From a virus, in the IMG/VR virus record IMGVR_UViG_3300005293_000046, positions 1 through 38,667 of that record: a stretch of DNA of 38,667 nucleotides; one strand, written 5' to 3'. The notes below the pieces were generated by a model. It saw only the letters and a list, made by a program, of their open reading frames with translations, had not been told where the DNA came from and did no database searches. A program made the translations under genes and the position numbers. The stretch's first letter is position 1, and every line of letters begins with the position of its first letter. Positions 14,628 through 28,303 of this stretch are shown here, in pieces.

Positions 14628-14628
14628 G

Positions 14629-14702
14629 TCGCTCTGGCGGGCATCGAACCCGCCTCACCACCTTATGAGGGTGTGCCGGGGCCTTCTCCGGTCTACAGAG
14701 CG
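14629..14702 (-). tRNA. tRNA-Met(CAT)
   Basis: Acceptor CGCTCTG/CAGAGCG, anticodon loop CTCATAA (CAT), perfect T-arm, A73. C1-G72 is paired and the anticodon stem lacks the three G-C pairs of an initiator, so an elongator is likely. An Ile2-type (lysidine) tRNA cannot be excluded. A GCCC-GAAA-GGGC hairpin sits just upstream. Confidence 0.8.
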
Positions 14703-14751
14703 ATTGCCCTTTCGGGCTATTCAGTTGTACTAGTGTAGCAGAGATTTACCC

Positions 14752-15468
14752 TCAGCACCACTGGCTCGTGTAGCGCAGCGGCTTGGCGAGGTAAAGCTCG
14801 CGCTCTTCGAAGTCGTCTTCCCATTCGCCCTCGTCCGCGTTAGCGGCCTTGGTCATGTTGCGGAGGATGTTCTTCTTCATGGTGCGGCTACGCTTTTCGG
14901 CCCAGATGCCGCCAGGCTCGCACCTGTCGCACGAGCAGTTGCGGCGTTCGCTTTCGCGGGGGAGGGTGCGGTAGCAGCCGTTGTGGTTGTAGCGCGTGTT
15001 GTAGCGGGGTCCTTCAGGGATGTGTTCGGTGCATTCCTGAGGAACCTCGATGATGATTTCCTCGCGCTTTTCGCGCTGGGTGCTGGAGTAGAGCAGCTTG
15101 CGATCACCCTGTCCGATGTTGACGAGGTTCTGTGCCTCCTGCCAGATCGGGTTGATGCCCTTTCCGGTGGTGAGCCAGTAAGCCTCGCCGTCCTTCATCG
15201 TGTAGCGCATGGACTCAAGCATGGCGAGAGGCCAGTTGACGGCGCGGTACCAGTCCTTGGTACGCGGAGCGTTCTCAGCGATCCAGTTGGCTGTTTCCCA
15301 GCGCTCGTGGGTTTCCATGACGGGGTTGCCCTCGTCATCGCGGATGATCTTTCCCTTGAGGGTGGTGTAGCTGTTGCCCCAGTAGGTGCAGAAGGTGTGG
15401 TCGTGCTTGACGACACCCTCATCGTTGAGCATCACCCAGTACGGGCGATCCTTGTCGGTGCGTGACAT
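14752..15468 (-). CDS. Hypothetical protein with Cys cluster, 238 aa
   Basis: Unrecognised protein of 238 residues. The N-terminal half is rich in Trp, Tyr and charged residues (YWVMLNDEG, HTFCTYWGNSY). A CSCDRCEPGG cluster near residues 180-189, preceded by a GCYRTLPRESERRNC segment, could bind zinc. Codon use matches its neighbours. The feature of note is its leader, a 125-nt region with three mutually exclusive hairpins, the last of which covers the ribosome site. This suggests post-transcriptional control. It lies next to tRNA groups on both sides, so a role linked to RNA or translation is possible but not shown. Confidence 0.8.
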   Translation of the reverse strand: MSRTDKDRPYWVMLNDEGVVKHDHTFCTYWGNSYTTLKGKIIRDDEGNPVMETHERWETANWIAENAPRTKDWYRAVNWPLAMLESMRYTMKDGEAYWLTTGKGINPIWQEAQNLVNIGQGDRKLLYSSTQREKREEIIIEVPQECTEHIPEGPRYNTRYNHNGCYRTLPRESERRNCSCDRCEPGGIWAEKRSRTMKKNILRNMTKAANADEGEWEDDFEERELYLAKPLRYTSQWC

Positions 15469-15471
15469 TGT

Positions 15472-15568
15472 GGTTCCATTCCGGAACCTAGATGTGGGGC
15501 CTTTCCCCGCTGGCGTCTAGGTCCCTAACACATTTGCCAGCCGAAGCTGGTACTGTGTCGTGGGACCT
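15472..15568 (-). promoter_or_regulatory. Three-hairpin switch leader (riboswitch-like)
   Basis: In transcription order: hairpin A (15519-15568) has a 7-bp outer AGGTCCC/GGGACCT stem, a 5-bp ACACA/TGTGT stem and an inner CCAGC-TTCG-GCTGG stem. Hairpin B (15486-15522) has an ACCTAGA/TCTAGGT stem over a GGGG/CCCC stem. Hairpin C (15472-15488) pairs GGTTCC with GGAACC, the latter being the likely ribosome site of the ATG at 15468. A shares bases with B and B shares bases with C. A plus C hides the ribosome site, while B exposes it. Confidence 0.65.
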
Positions 15569-15599
15569 GAACCGAAGTGATGTTCTTTGTCATATCTAC

Positions 15600-15628
15600 A
15601 GTGTAGCACACCTACGCGGTGGGCGCAA
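15600..15628 (-). promoter_or_regulatory. Promoter for the switch leader and 238-aa gene
   Basis: Read leftward: TTGCGC, 17-bp spacer, TACACT. The predicted start near 15593 gives a leader of about 125 nt that contains the three alternative hairpins. The same promoter region overlaps the end of the 101-aa gene upstream. Confidence 0.75.
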
Positions 15629-28135: not shown

Positions 28136-28144
28136 ATAAAGGGG

Positions 28145-28215
28145 ACGTACCACTAGGATTTGAACCTAGACCTGGGGCGGTAAGGCCCCCGTGCTGCCAG
28201 TTACACTATAGCACT
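28145..28215 (-). tRNA. tRNA-like with 6-nt anticodon loop
   Basis: D-stem GTGT/GCAC and T-stem CTAGG/CCTAG are normal. The acceptor AGTGCTA/TGGTACG has a 1-72 mismatch. The perfect anticodon stem GGGGC/GCCCC closes only six bases, CTTACC. If U33 is kept, the anticodon reads TAC. One base appears to be lost. Confidence 0.5.
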
Positions 28216-28303
28216 CAGGAGATTCCAGTGTAGAACTCCTGCCCCTGCTCGATAATCACAGGCGATCCGATCACTACTCGGATTTCCCGCTTTCAACAAA
28301 GCG

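Follow-up and report, generated by a model that had tools for sequence, protein, structure and literature searches.

The window analysed here is the whole 38,667-nucleotide stretch, an IMG/VR fragment of a phage whose relatives are Zooman, Cece, A3Wally, Big4, Pumpernickel and one further Microbacterium phage, all of ~190 kb. Its minus strand carries a 125-nt leader, flanked by a small ORF that follows rtcB and by the gene for a 238-aa protein; the features of this region are as follows.

15600–15628, minus strand: predicted promoter (sequence and pattern search; the −10 and the 6-nt distance recur in relatives)
15525–15593, minus strand: 22-codon upstream ORF (uORF) MTKNITSVQVPRHSTSFGWQMC*, predicted leaderless (like layout in eight leaders)
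15519–15568, minus strand: hairpin A, arm 1 with arm 2 (fold, z = −3.3)
15483–15525, minus strand: hairpin B, arm 2 with arm 3, 10 bp (10/10 pairs in the window)
15472–15488, minus strand: hairpin C, arm 3 with arm 4 (6/6 pairs)
14752–15468, minus strand: 238-aa protein gene, the predicted target of regulation (homologs found; no family match)

The 238-aa gene does lie amid tRNA and RNA-repair genes, as a preliminary description of this DNA had it: its neighbours are rtcB, macro-domain and RNA-ligase genes in one direction and tRNA genes in the other. Its product has the N-terminal signature MSRTxKxRPxWV...HDH and a Cys-rich C-terminal half. Searches of Pfam, PHROGs and NCBIfam gave no match, a PDB sequence search returned nothing usable, and the AlphaFold models are of low confidence. 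An SRTxKxRPxW signature, usually with an HDH-like motif, is common to otherwise different actinobacterial phage and chromosomal proteins. They form a small family whose tested members have no Pfam, PHROGs or NCBIfam match and which in phages often sits beside tRNA genes; members lie at these positions of the sequences collected.

L010: position 6908
L013–L017: position 1501
L018: position 3001
L019–L022: position 3001

Directly 3' of the 238-aa gene, at ~14628–14706 on the minus strand, is a tRNA-like sequence with anticodon CAT; relatives carry an annotated tRNA-Met(cat) there, and neither ARAGORN nor Rfam makes a call in the window. Another tRNA-like gene (28142–28216, minus strand) has an unassigned two-base anticodon reading in ARAGORN and is scored as a tRNA by Rfam.

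The first base of the leader is the A of the ATG that opens the 22-codon uORF, an ORF overlooked in the preliminary description. The predicted promoter consists of a −35 TTGCGC (15628–15623), a 17-nt spacer and a −10 TACACT (15605–15600) that ends 6 nt ahead of this ATG. A −10 exactly 6 nt before the ATG occurs in eight of the leaders compared below, and two annotators entered the uORF as gene 175, one in A3Wally and the other in a further related phage. We infer that it is translated as a leaderless ORF. The same signature of −35, −10, 6 nt and ATG stands at six longer ORFs in the window, two of which belong to known families.

5116, plus strand: leaderless-signature ORF start
6556, plus strand: leaderless-signature ORF start
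31767, plus strand: leaderless-signature ORF start
27369, minus strand: leaderless-signature ORF start
19215, minus strand: leaderless-signature ORF start, RNA ligase
18069, minus strand: leaderless-signature ORF start, macro-domain protein

These six ORFs make leaderless starts look normal for this phage, in which leaderless translation may, judging from sequence, be common; it presumably operates in Microbacterium.

Three mutually exclusive hairpins fold in the leader RNA. Hairpins A and C were found exactly where the preliminary description had placed them. Hairpin A pairs a 5' arm (15568–15554) with a 3' arm (15532–15519) through the stems AGGUCCC:GGGACCU, GACACA:UGUGUU and CCAGC-UUCG-GCUGG, read from 15568 to 15519. 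The UUCG loop reported to cap its inner stem is real in the window, and the loop sequence is absent from most relatives. Hairpin B exists as well, but had been drawn too short: it is a 10-bp helix of arm 2, GGGACCUAGA (15525–15516), with arm 3, UCUAGGUUCC (15492–15483), and it encloses a GGGG/CCCC hairpin at 15508–15496. The overlaps, given earlier as 4 nt between B and A and 3 nt between B and C, are actually 7 nt and 6 nt. Hairpin C is GGUUCC-GGAAU-GGAACC, built from part of arm 3 (15488–15483) and arm 4 (15477–15472), and ACAAUG follows directly 3' of it without a U run. It had been described as covering the ribosome site, and the GGA in arm 4 is likely the ribosome-binding site of the 238-aa gene, but this Shine-Dalgarno site is weak, of GGA type only. 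The uORF threads through the same elements: its coding sequence contains arm 1, and its UAG stop extends into arm 2, the first base of which is the third base of the stop codon.

The leader has a minimum free energy of −53.8 kcal/mol compared with −35.7 ± 3.8 for shuffled sequences (z = −4.7, 0/200). Taken singly in the window, the hairpin regions score z = −3.3 (A), −3.9 (B) and −2.3 (C) against shuffles, and none of 500 shuffles equalled all three together. In eight leaders tested in this way the hairpin regions beat the shuffles, with the exception of A in L009. The earlier observation of mutually exclusive hairpins is confirmed.

Homologs of the 238-aa protein were taken from phage records and IMG/VR, and nine leaders were compared: those of the window, Zooman, Cece, A3Wally, Big4, Pumpernickel, L008, L009 and L018. 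All except L018 share a common layout of a −10-like hexamer, 6 nt, an ATG and a short in-frame ORF. In these eight leaders the uORF has 12–23 codons, its length varying by whole codons only, its stop lies 59–62 nt ahead of the main ATG, and the downstream gene begins MSRTDK. In eight of the nine, the last base of the uORF stop codon doubles as the first base of arm 2. In L018 the uORF, MRGNHVVLGT*, is preceded by a Shine-Dalgarno site and terminates within arm 2, and there is no convincing arm 1. L009 has a poor −35, which makes a leaderless start less certain for its uORF.

Conservation and covariation of the stems in relatives was the check set beforehand, and the pairings are kept through compensatory changes across the nine leaders. 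Pairs were counted by register from the uORF stop codon; a MAFFT alignment misplaced the arms of the window and L009. Helix B (2:3) has 10 ungapped pairs in every leader, 89/90 of them standard, where arm 3 was taken to be whichever downstream 10-mer complements arm 2 best, a choice that favours pairing. Helix C (3:4) has 6/6 pairs in every leader, 54/54 of them standard; neither count is corrected for phylogeny. At nine of the ten positions of helix B there is at least one change on both sides, the first position being invariant. L009 differs from the others in all four arm sequences (CUAUGAC / GUCAUAG, GGUCAUAGAU / AUCUAUGGCC, AUGGCC / GGUCAU) and still pairs 10/10 and 6/6. Arm 2 of L009 set against arm 3 of another leader, or the reverse, forms just 2–5 of 10 pairs. 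The nine leaders include six close relatives and so represent few independent events; most of the independent weight of the covariation comes from L009 and the window. At the level of sequence, the comparison establishes a uORF and four arms with mutually exclusive pairings, in a layout conserved with compensatory change.

The homologs in the Streptomyces phages BRock, LuckySocke, Alone3, GiJojo and pSt2308 were considered as further carriers and set aside, as the leader was not seen in them by eye; they lie behind a tRNA-Arg gene and have an AGGAGG-like site. Chromosomal homologs occur in 29/301 Micromonosporaceae genomes, and leaders were read there too.

L023–L053, ~80 nt upstream of position 1501, gene-sense strand: Micromonosporaceae leaders

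In the 25 that were read, four of them by eye because they fell outside the search pattern, an ORF of 4–5 codons is followed by a GCCCC/GGGGC hairpin that precedes ATGAGC. The mini-ORF mostly reads M-H-P-V/I and starts with GTG, ATG or TTG. Rfam gave no match on five of these loci, and the neighbourhoods of ten homologs, inspected by eye, showed no obvious common neighbour.

The effect of a ribosome on the leader was simulated by folding it minus everything up to 15 nt past the first P-site base and computing the unpaired probability of arm 4. In the window, arm-4 accessibility is 0.00 in free RNA and with the P site at codons 1–4. It is 0.52–0.62 at codons 6–10, 0.12–0.36 at codons 11–13 and 0.59–0.74 at codons 14–18, and falls to at most 0.04 from codon 19 onward; the dip in the middle arises because arm 4 partly pairs elsewhere in the 2:3 state. 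Pauses at about codons 5–18 are therefore computed to free arm 4. This closed-open-closed pattern, shut in free RNA and at the first and last ~4 codons, is found in seven of the nine leaders: Zooman, Cece, Big4, Pumpernickel, L008 and L009 resemble the window, with varying height. A3Wally is predicted to be leaky (0.40 in free RNA), and L018 departs from the pattern. Arm-4 accessibility is thus calculated to depend on ribosome position: in this model the gene would open when a ribosome pauses midway through the uORF and stay shut when the ribosome sits at either end of it or is missing.

The leader is probably a phage-borne, ribosome-operated translational attenuator of the erm/cat type, fed by a leaderless uORF. 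Transcription would start at the uORF ATG, and the uORF would then be translated leaderless. A ribosome running smoothly to the stop would mask arm 2 and let C (3:4) form; after its release A (1:2) and C would persist, leaving the ribosome-binding arm of the 238-aa gene shut. A ribosome stalling or dwelling at about codons 5–18 would instead cover arm 1 and leave arm 2 free to pair with arm 3 (B), which would release arm 4 and allow the 238-aa gene to be translated. The likely direction of the switch is that of the preliminary description, in which A and C together are the off state and B the on state; the pairings kept by compensatory changes in relatives support that assignment. Its suggestion of an attenuator, possibly worked by ribosome stalling, likewise gains from the conserved uORF, which supplies the ribosome.

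The signal would be elongation slowed in infection, through shortage or cleavage of certain aminoacyl-tRNAs or through a translation inhibitor. The neighbouring tRNA and RNA-repair genes make slowing by tRNA damage the natural candidate, and the limiting aminoacyl-tRNAs would perhaps be those for Thr, Ser or Asn. The uORFs are enriched in these residues (Thr 15.9% vs 6.2%, Asn 12.1 vs 4.4, Ser 11.5 vs 4.8), an excess that serves as a lead only, since the counts come from related sequences with an A/C-rich 5' region. The uORF peptide is not conserved among the leaders, and no codon stands out clearly as a sensor. A conserved arrest motif was sought in the uORF peptides of the compared leaders and none was seen; an arrest peptide was rejected on the lack of peptide conservation. 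Each uORF has at most one Cys codon, which is the final codon in six of eight. Sensing of Cys, suggested by that codon and a tRNA-Cys downstream, is disfavoured, as a stall on the final codons closes the switch and the A3Wally uORF ends in Met.

Attenuation worked by ribosomes is a textbook mode of control for biosynthesis and antibiotic-resistance genes in bacteria. Attenuators of the trp/thr type in amino-acid biosynthesis use a four-arm 1-2-3-4 logic with a translated leader. The phage leader shares the four arms and the leader ORF but differs in its control point, which is translation initiation, and in having no terminator U run after 3:4. A trp-type terminator was rejected on the absence of that run, with ACAAUG following hairpin C.

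The resemblance is closer to the erm/cat translational attenuators, the ribosome-stalling leaders of resistance genes (PMC11264731, PMC5118997). In both, a short leader ORF lies over arm 1; among the phage leaders, eight keep this ORF along with its frame and place. Pairings 1:2 and 3:4 stand against 2:3 (arm 1 is weak in L018), and the ribosome site of the gene is locked in 3:4 until a ribosome that stalls on the leader ORF frees it, a step that is predicted here. The phage leader differs in its phage genome, in a leader ORF predicted to be leaderless, in an arm 2 that begins at the stop codon, in having no conserved arrest peptide and in its target, a 238-aa gene with no family match. The toiL uORF of E. 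coli topAI-yjhQ, where a stall at any of several positions lifts repression, is alike in opening a structured ribosome site and in its broad codon window, by which several translation stresses could be sensed; toiL differs in lying in a chromosomal toxin-antitoxin operon and in being coupled to Rho termination (PMC12121999). Mycobacterial polycysteine leaderless sORFs (Canestrari et al. 2020, as cited in PMC9031893; candidates first noted in PMC4633059) are also short actinobacterial leaderless ORFs upstream of a gene, whose expression they reportedly set via ribosome speed. The phage uORF is not one of them, since it has no poly-Cys run, only the one final Cys codon in six of eight; it also sits in a phage genome, before a gene with no known cysteine link. 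By analogy, it may work in a related way.

The same arms would also serve a leader that senses the frequency of initiation on the leaderless uORF rather than stalling. Frequent trailing ribosomes would cover arm 1 and favour B, and idle RNA would settle into A and C, as with changes in the late-infection 70S pool. This is unlikely, yet it fits a uORF peptide with no specific stall site evident, a dependence of leaderless mRNAs on ribosome and initiator-tRNA state (PMC9031893), and an accessibility profile that requires only that arm 1 be covered. It leaves the excess of Thr, Asn and Ser codons without a role, and a single ribosome pass would also close the switch at the stop codon.

A riboswitch binding a metabolite or tRNA, with its aptamer in A or B and the short ORF incidental, is very improbable even though exclusive structures and a sequestered ribosome site are riboswitch anatomy too. 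The metabolite riboswitch raised in the preliminary description is rejected: even at E = 5 an Rfam search of the leader returned neither a riboswitch nor any other family, and beyond the close relatives, in L009 and L018, no unpaired core is shared. The ORF, its frame and the stop register are moreover kept while the arm sequences are replaced. Hairpins this strong might equally stabilise or process the mRNA, and the GGAAC/GTTCC-like inverted repeats, present in four copies in most leaders, might be DNA sites bound by a repressor; in either case there would be no switch. Such an explanation has very little probability. Stability elements do not need overlapping arms, a DNA operator would keep sequence rather than complementarity, and through complete sequence turnover arm 2 continues to fit arms 1 and 3, and arm 3 to fit arms 2 and 4.

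The window holds a second leader, which precedes a tRNA gene.

25310–25239, minus strand: leaderless 23-codon ORF MTSSKRTQWTQTVSSVNGIIGVL* (TTGACA, TACCAT, 6 nt, ATG)
25310–25190, minus strand: whole leader, with a terminator-like hairpin
25111–25022, minus strand: tRNA-Ser(gga)

Its leader peptide is 65–87% conserved in six relatives and annotated in none. In the hairpin the stem sequence changes with pairing kept, and the UUGACA loop is constant. From its sequence, this leader is a possible leader-peptide transcription attenuator.

We know of no phage-encoded leader-peptide attenuator, and none was found in a search of mostly open-access literature. The mechanism is a known one; what would be new are the phage carrier, the predicted leaderless sensor, the register of stop codon and arm 2, and the target, and every function given here is a prediction. 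Phages that bring many tRNAs along with RNA-repair enzymes are generally supposed to be countering host defences that cleave tRNA. Tentatively, and short of an even chance, the leaders could be the first phage family of leader-peptide attenuators, in which leaderless mini-ORFs of Microbacterium phages gauge translation stress in the infected cell, whether from cleaved tRNAs or from scarce amino acids, and turn on genes of a tRNA and RNA-repair island. If so, the 238-aa gene would be a defence-response or translation-protection gene, and tRNA-Ser would be controlled by the second leader, at the level of transcription. Looking for short leaderless ORFs that end right at a switching arm offers a handle for finding similar leaders, and a phage mRNA that reads stalls would make the sensing of tRNA attack by phages directly testable, with the 238-aa protein as the candidate response.
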